Source: Fusobacteriaceae bacterium
GTDB lineage: Bacteria > Fusobacteriota > Fusobacteriia > Fusobacteriales > Fusobacteriaceae
DNA length: 39,191 nt
Reading direction: 5' to 3'
NCBI GenBank assembly: GCA_031272945.1
Contig: JAISST010000086.1
Span: 1 to 39,191 of the forward strand
Under the pieces are notes generated by a model. It searched no databases, had not been told where the DNA came from, and worked only from the letters and a program-made list of their open reading frames with translations. Of the stretch, positions 1-24,160 are shown in pieces. The translations under genes were made by a program, and so were the position numbers. The number at the start of each line of letters is the position of its first letter. The stretch's first letter is position 1.

Positions 1-31
1 GCAATTAAAGAATAAAACCGGAGGTGTGGCC

Positions 32-1678
32 ATGAGAAAACTGCCGATAGGGATAGACGACTTTAAAGAATTGAGGGAACAAAATTACTTTTATGCCGAT
101 AAATCCCTGTGGATTCATCATCTCCTGGAAGATGGCGCCAAGGTCACTTTATTTACCCGGCCCAGGCGATTCGGAAAAACCCTCAACATGTCCATGCTCC
201 ATTATTTCTTTGATGTCAAAAATTCCGAAGAAAACCGAAATTTGTTCAATGGCCTGAAAATAGAAAAATCCATGCATATCTTGGAGCAGGGGAAGTTTCC
301 GACCATTTTTATTTCTTTCAAAGATTTGAGATTGAATTCCTGGGAAGAGTGCCTGATAAAAGTAATAAATTTGTTATTGAGGTGCTTTTTGGAACACGAG
401 GATCTCTACAATTCATTGTCCAAAATGAAAAAAATCAGATATGATTTATTTATCAATCGATCTGCAGATGCCGCATGGGATGACGCCTTAAAAGTTCTTT
501 CGGAATATCTGGAAGCGTATTATCAGAAAAAAGTGGTTATTTTGATTGACGAGTACGACACGCCGTTGATTTATGCGTACCAATACGGATACTACGATAA
601 GGCCGTTTCATTCTTTCGAAATCTGTACAGCGCGGCGTTGAAGAGTAATACAAGCCTTCACAAGGGAATCATGACAGGAATCACCCGTGTTGCCAAGGAG
701 GGAATCTTCTCAGGATTGAGCAACCTGACTGTCGATACGATTTTGAGTACCAAATACGCCGACTTTTTCGGTATTACGGAGGATGAACTTCAATCGGCGG
801 TAGAGGAGTATCAGATTCCGGATTCTATCGGGGATATAAGGAAATGGTACAATGGTTATCGTTTCGGCAATGTAGAAATTTATAATCCATGGTCGATCCT
901 GAATTACTTGAAAACCGGACAACTGAGCGCCTATTGGATCAATACCTCGGCCAATACCGAGATAAACCAAATATTGGATATCTCCGATGAATCCGTATTC
1001 TTGGATCTCGACAAGTTACTTGCCGGCAATACATTAACGAAATATATTTATAAAGAGATGACCTTCGAGAGTTTGAGAGATCAAAAAAAATTGTGGACGC
1101 TCCTTTTAAACAGCGGATACCTGACGGTGACGGATACATCCTCTCAAGACGGATATTATCGCCTTCGTATCCCCAACCAGGAAATTCTCTCGTTTTTCAA
1201 AGAAAATTTTATCGAACGATTTATAGGCTTGGATAACGCACATTTGCCCCAACTGTTGAAGTCGCTCAAGTCGAAAACCATAACCGGAAAAAATTCCTTC
1301 GAATCGGCCCTGAAGTCCATTTTTCTTTCCAAAATCAGCTATTTTGACGCCGCCGGTCGGGAAAGCTTTTACCATGGCTTTATGATTTGTTTATCGCTGC
1401 TGTTTCAGTCGGAATACATCGCAATATCCAATATTGAAAGCGGGTCCGGCAGACCGGATTTGGTCCTGGAACCCAGAGACAAAAAGAATCCGGGCATTAT
1501 TTTGGAATTCAAAATTGCCGGAAACAAAAAAGAGCTGGAACAAGCAGCAGAAAGTGCTTTGGCGCAAATTGAAAATGAGAAATACAGCGCCTTCTTGCAA
1601 GAACGGGGCGTCGAAGATATCCTGGCCATAGGAATCGCGTTCTGCGGGAAAGAGCTCTGCATCAAACGCCGAATTTGA
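32..1678 (+). CDS. AAA-ATPase-like protein with C-terminal PD-(D/E)XK nuclease domain
   Basis: 548-residue protein of the AAA-ATPase_like plus DUF1703 type. Near the N-terminus is the family's modified Walker A, TRPRRFGKTLN (about residues 42-52), and a Walker B, VVILIDEYDTP (about 168-178). The C-terminal third carries a PD-(D/E)XK nuclease signature: GRPDLVL (Asp about 476), ILEFK (Glu about 492, Lys about 494) and a trailing QxxxxY (about 513-518). These proteins occur in many near-identical copies in gut and oral anaerobes. Their function is not established; a mobile-element or defence role is suspected. I chose ATG 32 over the in-frame GTG 26 because GGAGG at 20-24 lies 7 bases before the ATG and only one before the GTG. 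The gene looks more A+T-rich than its neighbours, which fits acquisition by transfer. Family assignment is firm, function unknown. Confidence 0.85.
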   Translation: MRKLPIGIDDFKELREQNYFYADKSLWIHHLLEDGAKVTLFTRPRRFGKTLNMSMLHYFFDVKNSEENRNLFNGLKIEKSMHILEQGKFPTIFISFKDLRLNSWEECLIKVINLLLRCFLEHEDLYNSLSKMKKIRYDLFINRSADAAWDDALKVLSEYLEAYYQKKVVILIDEYDTPLIYAYQYGYYDKAVSFFRNLYSAALKSNTSLHKGIMTGITRVAKEGIFSGLSNLTVDTILSTKYADFFGITEDELQSAVEEYQIPDSIGDIRKWYNGYRFGNVEIYNPWSILNYLKTGQLSAYWINTSANTEINQILDISDESVFLDLDKLLAGNTLTKYIYKEMTFESLRDQKKLWTLLLNSGYLTVTDTSSQDGYYRLRIPNQEILSFFKENFIERFIGLDNAHLPQLLKSLKSKTITGKNSFESALKSIFLSKISYFDAAGRESFYHGFMICLSLLFQSEYIAISNIESGSGRPDLVLEPRDKKNPGIILEFKIAGNKKELEQAAESALAQIENEKYSAFLQERGVEDILAIGIAFCGKELCIKRRI

Positions 1679-13396: not shown

Positions 13397-14524
13397 CTAT
13401 TTTTTCAGAGCCAGCGGCATGACGATGTAGATGTATTTTTTGGCGGGACTCGTGATCCGTACCGATGTGCCGGCGTTTACCATTTCCATGATGATCGTGT
13501 CGTCTTTGTCGAGATTTTGCACAAAGTCCAGGATGAACTTCGTGTTGAGGGCGATTTTGATGGGCTCCCCTTCGTAGGCCACCTTGACGGTTTCCGTGAT
13601 TTTCGCGAGATCGTTGGCGCCCTCGATGAGCATCTCGTCGCCGTTAAAGTCCAGGGTTGCGCCGTATCTGGATTCCTGGTTATTCCGGACGAAAATCAGT
13701 ACCCGGCGCAAAAGCATGGAAAAATCTATATTTTTGATCGTCAATTTTTTGTCGTAGCTTCCGTTGTCCAGGATCTGGCGATAGTTGGGAAAACTCATGT
13801 CCACCATCCGACTGATGGTCAGGGTAACGCCGAGTTTGAAAAAGATCTTTCCATCGATAGCGTAAAATTTGACTTCCGTATCCTCATTGCTCCGGAAGAG
13901 TTTTACGAGGGAATCCACTGTGGAATAGGGAATGCTGAGACTTACGGGCTCGTTGACGGCCTCGAGGGCGTTTTCTATATAGGTCATCCGGAACGTATCC
14001 GTCGAAATAAACTTGATGACATTGTCCTCGCTCTCGACCCGCACGCAGTTGATGGCGATATTTTCGGAGGAAACGGAGGCGGAAAACTTTACTTTTTCCA
14101 GGATATCCGCCAGATCTTTCGCTTTGGCGCTGAAATTTTCTTTGTTTTGATCAAAATCCACGTCGACGGGAATTTTGGGATAATCATCCGGATTCATCAG
14201 CGTAAATTCCGAGGAAGAATCCTCGTTCTCAATCAGAAGATTGTTTTCATTGAAACTCAGGGTGATCTCGGCGTCATTCAGTTCATTGACATACTCGTAC
14301 ACCATCTGGTGCTGGAAGACGATCCGTCCTTCCTCGATGACGTCATCGCAGGGGACGACAGTCGTTATGGTCGTTTCCAGATTTGTGCCGCAAAAAAACA
14401 GTTCGTTTTTTCTTGTTTCCATGTACGTACAGGAAATAATGGGTTTGACTTTGTTCTCAACGATCGCTTTCTCCACGGTTCGGATTCCGTTTAAAAAACC
14501 TGCCCTGCTCACTTTTAATATCAC
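13397..14524 (-). CDS. dnaN: DNA polymerase III beta subunit (sliding clamp)
   Basis: 375 residues, the usual length. Three clamp domains: the N-terminal MILKVSRAGFLNGIRTVEKA, the middle with FSASVSSENIAINCVRVE and ISTDTFRMTYIE, and the C-terminal one ending YIYIVMPLAL, the conserved end that contributes to the partner-binding pocket. The dimeric ring tethers the replicase and repair factors to DNA. Start is GTG 14524 after AGGAGG. It is last in a run headed by the HsdR-like gene, 49 bases after the sigma-factor gene, and is not next to dnaA; I see no cluster of DnaA boxes here. Three TAGGAAAAAA-like units follow the stop. Confidence 0.96.
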   Translation of the reverse strand: MILKVSRAGFLNGIRTVEKAIVENKVKPIISCTYMETRKNELFFCGTNLETTITTVVPCDDVIEEGRIVFQHQMVYEYVNELNDAEITLSFNENNLLIENEDSSSEFTLMNPDDYPKIPVDVDFDQNKENFSAKAKDLADILEKVKFSASVSSENIAINCVRVESEDNVIKFISTDTFRMTYIENALEAVNEPVSLSIPYSTVDSLVKLFRSNEDTEVKFYAIDGKIFFKLGVTLTISRMVDMSFPNYRQILDNGSYDKKLTIKNIDFSMLLRRVLIFVRNNQESRYGATLDFNGDEMLIEGANDLAKITETVKVAYEGEPIKIALNTKFILDFVQNLDKDDTIIMEMVNAGTSVRITSPAKKYIYIVMPLALKK

Positions 14525-14573: not shown

Positions 14574-15395
14574 TTAAAGCATCCGTTCCTGCAATTCCTT
14601 GGAGTATTTGCTCCGGAGCTTTTGCAGCGTCCGTTTTTCGATCTGCCGCACGCGCTCCCGGGTGATATTGAATTCATTGCCGATTTCTTCAAGCGTATGA
14701 ATCTCATAGCCGTCCAGCCCGAAACGCAGTTTCAATATTTCCTTCTCCCGTTCATTCAGGGCGTTTACCATGTCAATGACCTGTTTTCTGCCCATTTCCT
14801 CGATGACCTTGTCTTCGAGGGAACTCCCTTCCTCGTTGATCAGCGTATCTTCCAAAAAAATGTCTTCCCCGATGGACATATTGAGCGACATGGTATCCTG
14901 AAAATCCAGCAGGATTTTTTCCACCTTGGAAGGATTGATGTCCAGATCGCCGGAAATCCGGTCAATGGAGGGGTAGAATCCGTCTTCTTTTATTTTCGCC
15001 ATGATGTAGCGGTTGACGCGGTTTAACAAGTCATGCCGGTAGGAGGGAATCCGGATATCCCTGCCTTTGTTAATGACCGCCTTGCTGATGGCCTGTTTGA
15101 TCCACCAGACCGCGTAGGTGGAAAAGCGGAAGCCCTTCCGGATATCAAATTTTTCTATGGCGTGAATTAAGCCGAAATTCCCTTCGCTGATCAAATCAAT
15201 AAAACTCATGCCCTTTTTCGTATAGCCTTTCGCGATATTGACCACAAGACGTAAATTCGATAAAATAAGCTGGTTCTTGGCCTCCGGATCTCCCTCTCTT
15301 ATTTTTTTCAACAAATCCAACTCTTCGTCTTTGTCAAGAACTCTGTATTTTCTGATATCTTCCAGATAAAGGGAAATCAAGTCCCGTTCTTCCAT
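14574..15395 (-). CDS. RpoD/SigA-related sigma-70 family factor (short, no region 1.1)
   Basis: 273 residues. It has region 1.2 (DLISLYLEDIRKYRVL), a full region 2 (NLRLVVNIAKGY, FIDLISEGNFGLIHAIEKFD, FRFSTYAVWWIKQAI), region 3 and a region 4 helix-turn-helix (LEEIGNEFNITRERVRQIEK). It lacks the acidic region 1.1 and the long non-conserved insert of large primary sigma factors. This could be the organism's primary factor in reduced form or a group 2 (RpoS-like) alternative factor; the -35 and -10 boxes seen in this window fit either. ATG 15395 lies 3 bases after the gpsA stop, with AAAGGGG as ribosome site, so it is co-transcribed with gpsA. Confidence 0.93.
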   Translation of the reverse strand: MEERDLISLYLEDIRKYRVLDKDEELDLLKKIREGDPEAKNQLILSNLRLVVNIAKGYTKKGMSFIDLISEGNFGLIHAIEKFDIRKGFRFSTYAVWWIKQAISKAVINKGRDIRIPSYRHDLLNRVNRYIMAKIKEDGFYPSIDRISGDLDINPSKVEKILLDFQDTMSLNMSIGEDIFLEDTLINEEGSSLEDKVIEEMGRKQVIDMVNALNEREKEILKLRFGLDGYEIHTLEEIGNEFNITRERVRQIEKRTLQKLRSKYSKELQERML

Positions 15396-15398
15396 AGC

Positions 15399-16412
15399 CT
15401 ACCCCTTTTTCTCATAGAATTCTTCCTTTGTGCTTCTGCGCATCAGTCCTTCCACGACATTGCGGGGGTCCACGTTGTTGTAGATCACGTCATAGATCCC
15501 GTTCACAAGGGGCATGGAGACCCCTAATTTTTTCGCGGATTCGTAAATGGCCTTGACGGTGGGCACTCCTTCCGCCACCATGATCATCCGGGAAAGAATC
15601 TGCTCGATTTTTTCCCCTTTGCCCAAAAGCTCCCCGACATGGCGGTTTCTGCTGTGGCGGCTCGTGCAGGTCACGACGAGGTCCCCGATTCCGCTCAGGC
15701 CTGAAAATGTCGTTTCTTTGGCCCCGAGGGCCTTTCCGTAACGGATCATTTCCGCAATACCCCGGGTAATCAGGGCCGCTTTCGTATTGTCCCCGAAACC
15801 CAGCCCGTCCGTGATTCCCGCTCCGATGGCGAGGCAGTTTTTCACGGCGGCACCCAGTTCGACGCCGATGATATCGTCGTTGATATAGATCCGGAAACGA
15901 TCGCTGTTGAGAAGTCTCTGTACTTTTTTCGCCTTGGCCGGATCCCCGGCGGCCACGATGGCGCTCGGAAGCCCGACAGCCACTTCTTCGGCGTGGGTGG
16001 GACCCGAAAGCACCACAATATTTCTGTGGTATTTTCCCAGGATTTCATCCTTCATCACTTCCGAAAGACGCATTCCGCTCAAAATTTCGATTCCCTTGGC
16101 CGTATTGACGAGAATTGTGCGGTCCGAAATCTGACCGGAAAATTTCCGAACCACTTCCCGGAGTTTCTGGGAAGGCACGGAAAAAATCACATATTGGATT
16201 CCTTTCAGCAATCCTTCGGCTTCTCCTGTCACATGAACCGTCTCGGGAAATTTCACCTGAGGAAGGTAACGCGTGTTTTCTCTGGCCGCTTCTATGGCAT
16301 CCGCCCTGTCTTTCTTGTAATCCCAGATCGAGACCCTGTGTCCTTTTCTGCCGAGCAATATCCCTAGGGCGCTGCCCCAACTGCCCGCTCCCAATATCAC
16401 TGCTTTTTCCAA
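15399..16412 (-). CDS. gpsA: Glycerol-3-phosphate dehydrogenase [NAD(P)+]
   Basis: 337 residues. Cytoplasmic enzyme reducing dihydroxyacetone phosphate to sn-glycerol 3-phosphate, the backbone for phospholipids. The Rossmann motif is at the N-terminus (VILGAGSWGSALG, about 5-17), VLSGPTHAEEVAVGLPSAIV lies in the middle, and the catalytic region GAAVKNCLAIGAGITDGLG and GLSGIGDLVVTCTSRHSRN follow. The start is TTG at 16412, with AGGAGG five bases before it and no better codon. It sits between plsY (63 bases upstream) and the sigma gene, so supply of glycerol 3-phosphate and its acylation are encoded side by side. Confidence 0.96.
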   Translation of the reverse strand: MEKAVILGAGSWGSALGILLGRKGHRVSIWDYKKDRADAIEAARENTRYLPQVKFPETVHVTGEAEGLLKGIQYVIFSVPSQKLREVVRKFSGQISDRTILVNTAKGIEILSGMRLSEVMKDEILGKYHRNIVVLSGPTHAEEVAVGLPSAIVAAGDPAKAKKVQRLLNSDRFRIYINDDIIGVELGAAVKNCLAIGAGITDGLGFGDNTKAALITRGIAEMIRYGKALGAKETTFSGLSGIGDLVVTCTSRHSRNRHVGELLGKGEKIEQILSRMIMVAEGVPTVKAIYESAKKLGVSMPLVNGIYDVIYNNVDPRNVVEGLMRRSTKEEFYEKKG

Positions 16413-16475: not shown

Positions 16476-17078
16476 CTATACCTTGAACTTGTTTTCCTTT
16501 CCTTCCCGAAGCCGCTGGATATTGGTCCTGTGTTTATAAATCACGAAAATTCCCGCGATCAGTGTGACCATGAGAATCGGCCCTCTTGTGATCCCCAGCC
16601 GCCCCGGCGGCAGAAACCACGTCAGGATCGGCAATAACCCGGCGCAGAGAATCGATCCGAGGGAAATATATCGGCTGATGAAAACCGTCACGATAAAGAT
16701 GATCAAAAGAATGAACGTGACCCGCGGAATCAGAAACAAAAATACTCCGAGACTGGTGGCTACGCCCTTTCCGCCTTTAAACCCGAGAAAACAGGAAAGC
16801 GTGTGTCCGATGATGGCCGTGAGTCCGATGATGACGAGAATATTCCCCGAGACTCCGCAACGGCTTGCCAGAAACGGCGGCAGAAAACCTTTGAGCGCGT
16901 CCATCACGAGGACGAGCATTCCGAAACGGGCCCCCAGTACGCGGTACGCGTTGGTCGTCCCGGTATTTTTACTCCCGTGTTCCCGGATATCAATGCCTTT
17001 GAAATATTTTCCGATCCATACCCCGCTGGGGATGGATCCCATAAAGTACGCGATGACCACAAACAACAAAGCTTTCAT
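16476..17078 (-). CDS. plsY: Acyl-phosphate:glycerol-3-phosphate acyltransferase
   Basis: 200-residue inner-membrane protein. PlsY transfers an acyl group from acyl phosphate to glycerol 3-phosphate, the first committed step of phospholipid synthesis. The three family motifs are visible: YFMGSIPSGVWIGK near the N-terminus, DIREHGSKNTGTTNAYRVLG, and FLGFKGGKGVATSLGVF. About five hydrophobic helices. The ORF could extend 13 codons upstream, but AGGTGG lies just before ATG 17078 and the family begins there. The gene follows the small membrane protein gene by 10 bases and precedes gpsA. Confidence 0.95.
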   Translation of the reverse strand: MKALLFVVIAYFMGSIPSGVWIGKYFKGIDIREHGSKNTGTTNAYRVLGARFGMLVLVMDALKGFLPPFLASRCGVSGNILVIIGLTAIIGHTLSCFLGFKGGKGVATSLGVFLFLIPRVTFILLIIFIVTVFISRYISLGSILCAGLLPILTWFLPPGRLGITRGPILMVTLIAGIFVIYKHRTNIQRLREGKENKFKV

Positions 17079-17088
17079 TCTGCACCAC

Positions 17089-17424
17089 CTATTTGAAAAA
17101 GAGTTTGACGGATCCAAGTAAATCGGAAATATATGTGAAGATCTTTGTTGCGGGAACCTGGAGATAATAGCTCATATAGCCGTAAAGATACAGGGCGTGC
17201 AACAATAGCGCGATGAAACGGAATTTTCTGTTTTTGGAAAACAGAAAGCGGAAGAAAGAGAACACAAAGCCGATTCCGGCCACGATTCCCGTGAAAAACA
17301 TGATGTTTCCGCTGAAAACCCTTTCCCGCAATACGCTCATATAGCCGCCTGCTTCATTTTCCGGCATTTTATGGATAATAAAGTAACAGATGCCGTAGAC
17401 ATACTCCAGAAAACATAAAAACAT
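17089..17424 (-). CDS. Small membrane protein of unknown function
   Basis: 111 residues, not recognised. Hydrophobic segments lie at about 1-17, 40-62 and 69-87, separated by a basic loop (LFSKNRKFRF). A strong AGGAGG precedes ATG 17424, and the gene starts 11 bases after the HsdR-like stop and ends 10 bases before plsY, so it is translated within that operon. The alternative start at Met29 would remove the first hydrophobic stretch but has no comparable ribosome site. Being locked between an HsdR-like pseudoenzyme and plsY, it could belong functionally with either; nothing in the sequence decides this. Confidence 0.75.
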   Translation of the reverse strand: MFLCFLEYVYGICYFIIHKMPENEAGGYMSVLRERVFSGNIMFFTGIVAGIGFVFSFFRFLFSKNRKFRFIALLLHALYLYGYMSYYLQVPATKIFTYISDLLGSVKLFFK

Positions 17425-17435
17425 GGCTACCTCCT

Positions 17436-20400
17436 TCAGCGTTTGTATTTGGAAAACGCGTTGCCGTTGATTGCTTTCAGAATCCCTGTGATTTTTTCCT
17501 GGCGGCCCTCGTCAAACAACACGTTGAAGCGGCTGAATTCTTCGTTTTCGAAGGAAAAGGAATCACAATTTTCCACATACCCGTTTTCAATGACATAATT
17601 CTTCAGCTTGCTTAAAAAGTTTTTCTGCTCCTCGTTGAGGGTCTTATCCTGAGATACTGGGAAAAAGGCCACTTTGATCTGCTCCGGATCCATTTTGGCA
17701 ATCCTTCGTACAAGCAGGCCCACGGGCAGTTCCCCATAGGCGTCCTCGTAATCCTTTTTGCTGCCGAGACGCTTGAAGAATACTTTTTCGAGGGAATTGA
17801 AATCCTCGGGCATGAGGTTGAAATTGGACCGCAGTTTCCAGATGGCGGCCTGATTGGGGTTGCTCCGGATAAATTCCGAGACCTGGTTCTGATACTCCCG
17901 GATTCGCTTCATTTTTTCCCTTTCCCCGGCGTTCTCTTCCGTTTCCGGCGTCACGTCCGCAGTGGTTTCCGGATTTTCCGTTTCCGTCGCGCCGGAATTT
18001 TTGACTTCGGCGGATTTGTCCCCGGGTTTGTTCTGCTCCTGTTTTCCCTCGGGCGCCGATGAAAAAATATACTGTATCAGTTTTCTCAATTTAATGCGAA
18101 CCTGTTCCAATTCCAGTACGGAGCTGTTATCAATGAATTTGCTGCTGCCGTAATACTTGATATAGTCCAGTTCGCTCCGGATCTCGGGAATATGCTCATT
18201 TTTCAATAACATATTGCATATGCTGGCAAGTTGTTTTTTGGCTCGGATCAAAAATGGCTTCGCTTCTACCTGGGCCAGCATGATCCCGTAAATAAAGTTG
18301 TCAAATTGAAGACAATATTCGTCTCCTTTTATTTTTACAAGCGGTGCGATCTGTACCTCCAGGGTGTTTTTGTCTTCTACGCTGAGCCCCGTGGCGTAGA
18401 CCGTCCGCCGGGTATAGCGCTCGATATTGGCAAACTGGGGCAGGACGCTTGTGAGTTCCGTGCTGACGCCTTTTACCAGCGCGACAATAAAATCAATCAT
18501 CCGATCCGAAAAGGCCAGGTAATCCTTGTCGATGAGTTTGGTATTCTGGATGTGATACACGAGTCCCACGCATTTTACGAAAATATCCTCCGATATATTC
18601 CGGAGTTCCAGCGCGTCCTCGCTGTTTTTGTCCTCATTGAAAAAGTCGAAATTTCCGAGATAATCGAAAATATAGTAACGCTTTTTTCCGACATAGACCC
18701 CTTCTTTGGGTTCTATGCACGTGATATTGGGGCAAGCCGCGTTTCCAAGACTCATCATTTGATGAAATTCAAACTTGGAGTAGACCTTCTTGAAAAGAAC
18801 GATATTGAGGATCTCCGGAATCACCATGCCCATGGAGGCCAGACCGACATCCACGAGGATGTTGACTGTTCCCGCGGGTTCGCAGAAATCATCGAGGGAA
18901 TCCCTGTCGTTGAAAAGGGCCAGCTTGATGAAGTCGTTTCCGTAGCCCGGATAGTTCATCCGGAACCGCTGTACGATCAGCTCTCCGTGATTTTTGTTCT
19001 GGGCGAAAATGATGGTCTTTCCGATGGTTTCGCTTCTGGATTCTTTGATCCCGCTTTTCATGATATCTTTCAATACCTTGTCGATGGTGGCCGTACTCAT
19101 CAGGTATTCCTCGACCATGGTATTGTTGGGAACCCATTTGAGCATTTTGGCGGGATCGTCCGTATAGGTGTTTTCGCAGAGATTTTTATATTCGACAGGC
19201 AGCTGGTCGTAACTCGTATAGTTTTCAAGAACTTTGTTCCCGATGGTCACGACGCTGTAGGGCACGATGATCCTGTCTTTCTGCAGGGCCTCCTCGTAAT
19301 GGTAAATAAAACGGCTGCTGTCATCCCGGCTTGTGCCGAAAAATTGAAGGATTTCGGGATCCAGGTCGTCCCTTGGCAGGGAGGATACGCCGACGATTGC
19401 CGAATGGAAATAGCGGAACAGTTTTTTATAGGATACGATCATATTCCAGCAGACATTGTCGACGACGATCAAATCAAATTCTCCCGGGGAGAAATATTTT
19501 TCTCCGCTCCCGGTGGTGTGTCCCAGTTCCTTGGCAATATCCGCGGGGGTAGAGAGCAGAAGCCTTCCGCTTTCGTCGCCGTATTTTGTGTATTCGCCTA
19601 CGGACATACTCAAAATCAGCCGCTTCAGCATTTTTTTCATGGCTTTCAGTTTCGCGTCCCTGCCGATCAGGTAGAGAATATTCGTTGCGTAATTGGCCCG
19701 GGACAAGAGGTCAATCAACCCCGCCAGCGCCTGATCCTGCGCGCTGCCGCTCGTCATGAAAACCAGGCTTCGCGTCTTGTTTTCGATAAAATCCGCCGTG
19801 ATGGTCTTGATGGCCTCGATCTGATAAGGTTGCGACGCGATTCTGCTGTCTATGGGGACCGTAATGAGATTTTTCTTGCTCTTTGTCAGATTCTTGATCC
19901 GATGCAAGTCCTCGAGACCGAATATCCCCGCGATTTTTCGGGGAACGGAATTCAGGTTTTCCATGTAATAAAAGGACCCGCCGTGAACGAGAAAAATGGC
20001 CGGCGCCCTTCTGGTGTCACTCCCGATATTTGCCGCGTATTTGATTGCCTGTCTTCTTCCGTATTCAAGATCCTCCAGACTGTAACGGCCCTCTATGATC
20101 GCCAGCGGCAACCCGTCCTTTCCCAGCAGCAGGTAATCAATGGACACTTTCTCCCGGCCTTCCGCCCGGTTTCTGATCACGTATTCCACATCTTTTTTGA
20201 TGTCCCGTTCGGGATCCCAGCCCGCGAATTTCAAATCGAGGTCGATGTAGAACTCCCGTACCCGCATCCTGTAAAAATCGGCCGGTTTGAAAATCCTGAT
20301 TTTCCGGTTGACGTCCTTTCTGACGAGAAAATACTTTCTGACGCCATAAATAAGTTCCTCCAGCCGTTTGTTCTCTTTTTCCTCCCGGAATATCAGGCTC

Positions 20401-20870
20401 CTTTTTTCAAAAGCCCTGTCCTTGTTGAGGACCGTGATCAGACCGACCGGGATATCTTCCTCCCGGAATTCTCTTTCCTCGTAACTGAGGCCATAGATAT
20501 AATCTATCCAGTCCACAAATTCAAAAACGATGGAAAGGGCCAGGACCGCGTCGTCCTTTGTCAGATCGTCTTCGGAACGGAGCGTAAATTTCCACAGTTT
20601 GATGATATAGGGCAGCTTCAAACGGATCTGTTCGTCCACAAGGGTGGTGAACAGAGGGTCCGAAATGAACTGTTCCAGGGTCTTGTATCTGTCCCTGTTG
20701 GGAATATCTTCGACGATAAAAAGCCATTTGACCGCAAAAGCAAGCGCTTCGTAACTTCCCATGACGCCCAGCGCAAGTGAGGTGGAGAGAATATTTTCCG
20801 TTTCTATGCAGACATCCGAAAACAGGGTATATTCCTTTTTATTTTTTAAATATTCAAAATTTGTAGGCAT
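17436..20870 (-). CDS. HsdR-like protein with degenerate motor and nuclease motifs (pseudoenzyme)
   Basis: 1144 residues with the order of an EcoEI-type type I restriction R subunit: a DUF4145-like N-terminus (about 25-125), a PD-(D/E)XK domain (about 200-285), an SF2 helicase motor (about 340-740) and an HsdR C-terminal region (WKLRSNFNLMPEDFNSLEKV, about 1011-1030) after an acidic, low-complexity linker (940-985). The active sites are ruined. Walker A reads MTSGSAQDQA (372-381) where MATGTGKTRT is usual, the DEAH box reads VVDNVC (469-474), TATP reads SSLP (496-499), and motif VI reads QMMSLGNAACP (704-714) where QMIGRGTRLCP is usual. The nuclease keeps D245, E260 and Q274/Y278 but has Arg262 for the catalytic Lys. 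No hsdM or hsdS is nearby. The intact 3.4-kb frame argues for selection for a non-catalytic role. It heads a six-gene run to dnaN. Confidence 0.85.
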   Translation of the reverse strand: MPTNFEYLKNKKEYTLFSDVCIETENILSTSLALGVMGSYEALAFAVKWLFIVEDIPNRDRYKTLEQFISDPLFTTLVDEQIRLKLPYIIKLWKFTLRSEDDLTKDDAVLALSIVFEFVDWIDYIYGLSYEEREFREEDIPVGLITVLNKDRAFEKRSLIFREEKENKRLEELIYGVRKYFLVRKDVNRKIRIFKPADFYRMRVREFYIDLDLKFAGWDPERDIKKDVEYVIRNRAEGREKVSIDYLLLGKDGLPLAIIEGRYSLEDLEYGRRQAIKYAANIGSDTRRAPAIFLVHGGSFYYMENLNSVPRKIAGIFGLEDLHRIKNLTKSKKNLITVPIDSRIASQPYQIEAIKTITADFIENKTRSLVFMTSGSAQDQALAGLIDLLSRANYATNILYLIGRDAKLKAMKKMLKRLILSMSVGEYTKYGDESGRLLLSTPADIAKELGHTTGSGEKYFSPGEFDLIVVDNVCWNMIVSYKKLFRYFHSAIVGVSSLPRDDLDPEILQFFGTSRDDSSRFIYHYEEALQKDRIIVPYSVVTIGNKVLENYTSYDQLPVEYKNLCENTYTDDPAKMLKWVPNNTMVEEYLMSTATIDKVLKDIMKSGIKESRSETIGKTIIFAQNKNHGELIVQRFRMNYPGYGNDFIKLALFNDRDSLDDFCEPAGTVNILVDVGLASMGMVIPEILNIVLFKKVYSKFEFHQMMSLGNAACPNITCIEPKEGVYVGKKRYYIFDYLGNFDFFNEDKNSEDALELRNISEDIFVKCVGLVYHIQNTKLIDKDYLAFSDRMIDFIVALVKGVSTELTSVLPQFANIERYTRRTVYATGLSVEDKNTLEVQIAPLVKIKGDEYCLQFDNFIYGIMLAQVEAKPFLIRAKKQLASICNMLLKNEHIPEIRSELDYIKYYGSSKFIDNSSVLELEQVRIKLRKLIQYIFSSAPEGKQEQNKPGDKSAEVKNSGATETENPETTADVTPETEENAGEREKMKRIREYQNQVSEFIRSNPNQAAIWKLRSNFNLMPEDFNSLEKVFFKRLGSKKDYEDAYGELPVGLLVRRIAKMDPEQIKVAFFPVSQDKTLNEEQKNFLSKLKNYVIENGYVENCDSFSFENEEFSRFNVLFDEGRQEKITGILKAINGNAFSKYKR

Positions 20871-20919
20871 CTTTTCCCCTTACGGTTCCTCGGAGCAATT
20901 GAAAAACATTTTCTTCCTC

Positions 20920-20949
20920 ATTATACAATAAAACGCTCAAACTTGTCTA
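20920..20949 (-). promoter_or_regulatory. Promoter of the HsdR-like operon
   Basis: On the minus strand TAGACA (20944-20949), 18 bases and TATAAT (20920-20925). The start site should lie near 20913, about 43 bases before the start codon. Confidence 0.65.
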
Positions 20950-20961
20950 TAGGTTAGACAA
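20943..20961. promoter_or_regulatory. Perfect inverted repeat over the -35 box: candidate operator
   Basis: TTGTCTA (20943-20949), 5-base spacer, TAGACAA (20955-20961): a perfect 7-5-7 palindrome that contains the whole -35 hexamer. A dimeric repressor bound here would block the promoter. No regulator gene is adjacent. Confidence 0.6.
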
Positions 20962-20984: not shown

Positions 20985-21021
20985 AAAAAATTCTATTGAT
21001 GTTTGCCGCACCAATAGAATT
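20985..21021 (-). terminator. Terminator of dacA
   Basis: AATTCTATTG (20989-20998) pairs perfectly with CAATAGAATT (21012-21021). On the minus strand a T-run follows (20985-20990). It ends dacA before the HsdR-like promoter. Confidence 0.8.
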
Positions 21022-24025: not shown

Positions 24026-24081
24026 TTGCAACACTTCCTGTATTTTAAAATGATGATGCGGTTCTTTTCAGGGCCGTTTAT

Positions 24082-24110
24082 ATTGTATCATTTCTTATTT
24101 TTTTTGTCAA
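24082..24110 (-). promoter_or_regulatory. Promoter of nifS-nifU
   Basis: On the minus strand a perfect TTGACA (24105-24110), 17 bases and TACAAT (24082-24087). I see no obvious IscR-like palindrome over it. Confidence 0.85.
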
Positions 24111-24160
24111 GATTAAAATTCCCGCGGGTCGAAATAATTTCATGCGTGTTTTGTATGGGC

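Follow-up and report, generated by a model that had tools for sequence, protein, structure and literature searches.

Restriction enzymes are thought to be quickly gained, lost and broken, orphan methyltransferases being familiar survivors. What, then, is to be made of a complete restriction subunit that appears to have lost its catalysis and not its frame? The window, which is the 39,191-nucleotide stretch of Fusobacteriaceae DNA analysed here, carries on the minus strand (20870 down to 17436) a single intact open reading frame of 1144 codons with no internal stops, whose product (X) resembles HsdR, the R subunit of type I restriction systems. A preliminary description of the locus had proposed that X is repurposed rather than decayed. 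Our comparison with two further species of the genus suggests that this genus of Fusobacteriales keeps a motor-dead HsdR as a strongly conserved gene, and that a defence enzyme has become a non-catalytic housekeeping protein. The open-access literature yielded no account of an R subunit that persists as a core gene, conserved yet non-catalytic, in line with the preliminary description, which knew of no system of this kind.

Homology and domain layout

The HsdR domain order and the EcoEI-type C-terminus had first been recognized from the sequence alone, and full-length profile, Pfam, NCBIfam and PADLOC matches bear them out. X is homologous to HsdR of the EcoAI/EcoEI type along its entire length, in the order nuclease, first RecA, second RecA, helical and C-terminal domain, and every one of the six domains, in X as in its two orthologues, is matched by profiles of bona fide R subunits at an E-value of 2e-23 or better (Table 1). 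The top-scoring Pfam domain is EcoEI_R_C (PF08463, 3e-13), ResIII matches at 1.5e-6 and PADLOC REase_I at 1.6e-64. The NCBIfam model for the EcoAI R subunit (NF046051) matches at 1.9e-23, yet with 82.8 bits against a cut-off of 550 bits, so that X is far from scoring as an equivalog. Indeed, X and its orthologues are only 24–29% identical to the nearest true HsdRs; a phmmer search of the PDB with the X sequence gave zero matches, a profile being required to reach 3h1t, and viral contigs searched with X itself as query gave none. The N-terminal domain occupies the position of the DUF4145/HEPN-like domain of true R subunits, and the C-terminal domain is preceded by an acidic linker (aa 936–985) that is predicted with low confidence (AF2, pLDDT <50). 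A shadow ORF on the plus strand (18231–20780, 849 aa), antiparallel to X, was not taken as a gene because the orthologues and the family matches belong to the minus frame.

An AF2 model from 7 alignment rows was poor (pLDDT 64); one from 21 rows had a pLDDT of 80 and a pTM of 0.62. In the 21-row model the nuclease, both RecA, the helical and the C-terminal domains are well formed, the model leaning towards the HsdR fold because the alignment includes true HsdRs. Its top matches in the PDB are HsdR structures, first the fragment from Vibrio vulnificus (3h1t), which is also the best profile match of X, and next EcoR124I (2w00/6h2j), which the preliminary description had named for comparison. The arrangement of the domains differs, which keeps the overall TM-scores low (0.26 by query), and it superposes poorly. 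Unlike X, both proteins are subunits of type I systems, and the identity is about 12–18%.

Table 1. Position of gene X, its domains and motifs, and neighbouring features in the window (aa, residues of X)
Feature	Position	Strand	Basis or remark
dnaN	13397–14524	−	Pfam, synteny
sigma-70-family factor	14574–15395	−	Pfam, synteny
gpsA	15399–16412	−	Pfam, synteny
plsY	16476–17117	−	Pfam, synteny
111-aa hydrophobic protein	17089–17424	−	directly 3' of X; 3/3 genomes of the genus vs 0/58 others; hydropathy maxima
gene X, probable pseudo-HsdR, 1144 aa	17436–20870	−	open frame, family matches, orthologues in G001 and G002
N-terminal helical domain, aa 1–150	20421–20870	−	N-terminus profiles of true R subunits match X/orthologues, 1.6e-23 to 2.2e-26
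PD-(D/E)xK nuclease domain, aa 199–330	19881–20276	−	D245, E260, QxxxY kept; K262 to R (EGR, 20085–20093)
First RecA-like motor domain, aa 331–560	19191–19880	−	ResIII match; motifs I, II, III lost
Second RecA-like motor domain, aa 561–760	18591–19190	−	GKTIIFAQN kept (18996–19022); motifs V, VI lost
Helical domain, aa 761–935	18066–18590	−	profile match 5.6e-24; AF2 helices
EcoEI_R_C C-terminal domain, aa 986–1144	17439–17915	−	Pfam PF08463
Motif I, TG[TS]GKT to SGSAQD (read MTSGSAQDQA)	19728–19757	−	key residues invariant in references
Motif II, DExH to DNVC	19449–19460	−	key residues invariant in references
Motif III, TATP to SSLP	19374–19385	−	key residues invariant in references
Motif V, DTGID to SMGMV	18822–18836	−	key residues invariant in references
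Motif VI, QMIGRGTR to QMMSLGNA	18738–18761	−	key residues invariant in references
Ribosome-binding site AAGGGG of X	20876–20881	−	AAGGGGAAAA same in three species
Sigma-70-type promoter TAGACA-18-TATAAT	20920–20949	−	11/12 matches; conserved in three species
Palindrome TTGTCTA-N5-TAGACAA, 19 bp, operator-like	20943–20961	−	overlaps −35 element
Terminator-like hairpin between dacA and X	20989–21021	−	sequence

Loss of the motor motifs

The SF2 motifs for ATP-driven translocation (I, II, III, V and VI) were compared with those of a reference set drawn from Fusobacteriales, viral contigs and one Dojkabacteria genome (29 true R subunits). Motifs I, II, III and VI read in X exactly as the preliminary description had given them, motif V, which it had passed over, is lost too, and GKTIIFAQN is retained as claimed. 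Residues K378, T379, E472, H474, T496, T498, D683 and R708, all invariant in the 29 R subunits, are lost in all three orthologues. The 30 motif positions, two of which vary conservatively, are otherwise invariant in 29/29 references; the three orthologues retain 11 of these residues (37%). Of 90 further near-invariant positions, 51–57 (57–63%) are unchanged in X and its orthologues. In a leave-one-out control the corresponding values for true R subunits are 99.8% and 97%, respectively. The substitutions, which the preliminary description had held to be confined to catalytic sites, are thus not so confined, since 37–43% of the other near-invariant positions have changed as well; the losses are preferential only. 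X is almost certainly unable to hydrolyse ATP or to translocate, judged from its residues, because the Walker lysine, the DExH glutamate and the first arginine of motif VI are gone.

The HEPN domain DUF4145 occurs fused to restriction endonuclease/SF2 helicase (PMC3710099), and the N-terminus of X aligns with the DUF4145 N-terminus found in its true relatives within the phylum. In X, however, the conserved N and H are lacking: GNxAVH of the GNxxxH motif reads WKFTLR (20577–20594), with N94K and H98R/Q/N across the orthologues. In R subunits GNxxxH stands for the Rx4-6H-type motif of HEPN ribonucleases, which X thus lacks, and a search for DUF4145 found no match in X, whereas the canonical HsdR N-terminus does match.

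Orthologues, partner subunits and selection

X is present in all three genomes of the genus examined (G000, to which X belongs, G001 and G002), which represent three species and are drafts, 92.6–99% complete. The orthologues are 72% and 65% identical to X, their frames are intact, and all three proteins have lost the same motor motifs; the recurrence of these degenerate motifs next to plsY-gpsA, which the preliminary description had asked about, is therefore seen in each of these genomes. Among 98 genomes of the phylum an X-like protein was found in these three only. Six other close full-length matches (in G051, G049, G033, G063, G078 and G010) are canonical with every motif kept, and in the neighbourhoods inspected the true HsdRs of the phylum are adjoined by hsdM and hsdS.

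A search for HsdS (PF01420) gave a match in 0/3 genomes of the genus, whereas the controls were detected, and a search of the same genomes for HsdM gave no convincing candidate, the N6_Mtase matches being weak. On these drafts X appears to be without an HsdM and HsdS of its own genome to work with and thus an orphan, as had been supposed; the case for missing hsdS and hsdM is strong but not absolute because all three genomes are drafts. The sole N6_Mtase match common to the three is an Eco57I/TaqI-like methylase, which was considered as a split partner of X and rejected: it occurs in most of the family, including where X is absent. In G000 this lone DNA methyltransferase gene lies beside murJ (contig C100, locus L025, 1477–3021), and with its retention in most family genomes it is a candidate lineage-specific orphan methyltransferase.

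X is under purifying selection. Between G000 and G001 its dN/dS is 0.093 (NG86), most like that of plsY (0.101) among its neighbours (dnaN 0.053, gpsA 0.117, dacA 0.172), values that are only rough because dS is near or beyond saturation. In G002 almost every synonymous site of X differs from those of the congeners (GC3 0.25 vs 0.63), and the protein, at 65% identity, is still above dacA (60%). This species shows an extreme composition shift within the genus, with a third-codon GC of about 0.17–0.29 vs 0.56–0.76 in its congeners.

Simple decay had been expected to leave stops, and this expectation holds: a neutral simulation over the synonymous distance of G000 and G001 left 8% identity and introduced 42 stops or more, vs no internal stop in the three species. 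Of the signs of a pseudogene, namely stops, frameshifts and a dN/dS near 1, none was found; the same catalytic loss in orthologues under purifying selection is what characterizes a pseudoenzyme. Orthologues without intact GKT or DEAH, the low dN/dS and the presence in 3/3 genomes agree with the proposed repurposing. Real decay is seen in another Fusobacteriales genome (G046, g17), where, in contrast to X, a truncated hsdR (L020, 9498–10568) has a 356-aa ORF and a match with an in-frame stop, and adjoins hsdS-like fragments. In the tree the X orthologues group in a single clade (100/100), whose stem measures 2.07 and whose tips measure 0.15–0.19, a long stem with short tips being the shape expected of change in a burst followed by renewed constraint.

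Origin and possible function

In our opinion X is probably an exapted pseudo-HsdR, that is, a pseudoenzyme that arose by domestication of a restriction subunit into a non-catalytic protein. The ancestor of the genus would have captured an EcoAI/EcoEI-type R subunit in front of the plsY-gpsA-sigma-dnaN operon; the subunit would have parted from HsdM and HsdS, or never have had them, would have lost ATP-driven translocation, and would then have been kept in its new state by purifying selection. With the type IB HsdRs (EcoAI/EcoEI; NF046051, PF08463) X shares full-length domain order, fold and the EcoEI_R_C C-terminus; it differs from them in being without ATPase motifs, in its altered nuclease, in the lack of a detected HsdM or HsdS, and as a core gene of the genus at a chromosomal housekeeping locus, far under the equivalog cut-off. 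If confirmed, this would mean that domestication can retain the large motor-nuclease scaffold of a defence enzyme and dispense with its catalysis, that X offers a natural set of residues by which ATP hydrolysis can be told apart from fold or binding, and that the labels "DEAD/DEAH box helicase" and "restriction enzyme" are wrong for X-like proteins, which should be a warning in annotation.

With respect to function we are more tentative. X may act as an ATP-independent nucleic-acid-binding scaffold, a reading that we hold with somewhat less than even confidence because constraint peaks in the nuclease-like (70% identical columns among the three orthologues, the highest value), second motor and N-terminal domains, and the former ATP-site loops drift (48% identical vs 66% in the remaining motor, p 0.02). 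Mechanistically, the nearest precedent for such a mode of action is Utp25, which belongs to the eukaryotic SSU processome and is a pseudohelicase whose SF2 fold is essential and whose helicase motifs are dispensable (PMC9539457); it is, however, of an unrelated family, is involved in RNA/ribosome assembly and has no nuclease domain.

Alternatively, X could be an anti-restriction decoy that docks on the M2S methyltransferase core and, as a dominant-negative R subunit, blocks an incoming type I system. That the best-scoring Pfam domain of X, EcoEI_R_C, is the one with which R subunits dock on M2S, and that no resident type I system was found that X would inhibit, would fit such a role. We nevertheless consider it improbable: no folded region is less conserved than the C-terminal domain (42% identical columns, compared with 62–70% for the nuclease and the motor domains), and this domain carries a net charge of +3 to +4 in X and its orthologues where true R subunits have −1 to −8. 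Decoys facing variable partners usually evolve fast, whereas X evolves like plsY.

The nuclease domain calls for more caution than the motor, its death being less certain because D245, E260 and either the lysine or the glutamine persist. The ExK motif reads EGR in X, K262 being arginine in G000 and G001 and lysine in G002, and in G002 it is Q274 of QxxxY that has become leucine; all three proteins retain D245, E260 and Y278. The lysine reported as lost is therefore lost in two species only, and the QxxxY reported as kept is kept in X and not in the G002 orthologue. It is conceivable, although we think it slightly less probable than the decoy, that X is a nuclease with a dead translocase, recruited by another route and still cutting, for which the retained residues and the high conservation of the domain would speak. 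Against this, all 29 reference R subunits keep both K262 and Q274, whereas the PD-(D/E)xK triad plus QxxxY is incomplete in each orthologue, and the mutation K167A in HsdR of EcoR124I abolished cleavage (PMC2602864).

Locus, operon and promoter

In all three genomes the gene order is dacA, X, a small hydrophobic gene, plsY, gpsA, sigma, dnaN. The last four form a conserved operon downstream of X, where the preliminary description had noted a chromosomal operon; in other genera TRAM/tRNA (uracil-5-) methyltransferase-like or other genes, not X, precede it. The small gene, which encodes a 111-aa protein without a Pfam match, always lies between X and plsY, separated from X in G002 by an ankyrin-repeat gene. 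It is a probable operon partner of X, and its product is the first candidate for a partner of the X protein. Together the two might form a genus-specific complex in which the dead motor, anchored to the membrane, would attach to the chromosome close to its own operator, or at it, and would link phospholipid synthesis with the sigma factor and the sliding clamp; this we regard as unlikely, and if true, a defence enzyme would have become a regulator of the nucleoid-membrane or operon level.

The frame, ribosome-binding site and promoter of X, rightly described as intact, are conserved in the three species, the promoter block in 25–26 of 27 bases. The palindrome over the −35 element has 0, 0 and 1 mismatches in the three species, is the only site with <2 mismatches in each genome, and was absent from 20 sister loci. 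When a regulon was sought in each genome, none could be read because only the X site exceeds chance. Upstream of iscS-nifU (24034–24160) there is another promoter block, TCTTGACAAAAAAAATAAGAAATGATA, 26/27 identical between G000 and G002 despite their very different base composition, which is probably a regulated Fe-S promoter.

A palindrome that is conserved, unique in each genome and limited to X loci, in an operon that appears to have no DNA-binding regulator besides the sigma factor, could point to X binding its own palindrome and autoregulating the X-plsY-gpsA-sigma-dnaN operon. This is still less probable than the alternatives above, as R subunits do not recognize a specific sequence, which is the task of the S subunit, and as the block at iscS shows that a strongly conserved promoter is not by itself peculiar to X, a separate regulator being just as possible. 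Finally, two further readings are refuted. That an ordinary hsdR has recently decayed in a single strain would explain the lost motifs and the partners not found, but the loss is common to three species with intact frames, the dN/dS is low, and dozens of stops would be expected from neutral decay. A frame intact only through an assembly or coding artefact is conceivable with drafts, but three separate assemblies agree on length, start, promoter and locus.

At the edge of the window (26–1678) an AAA-ATPase_like plus PDDEXK_9 protein is encoded.
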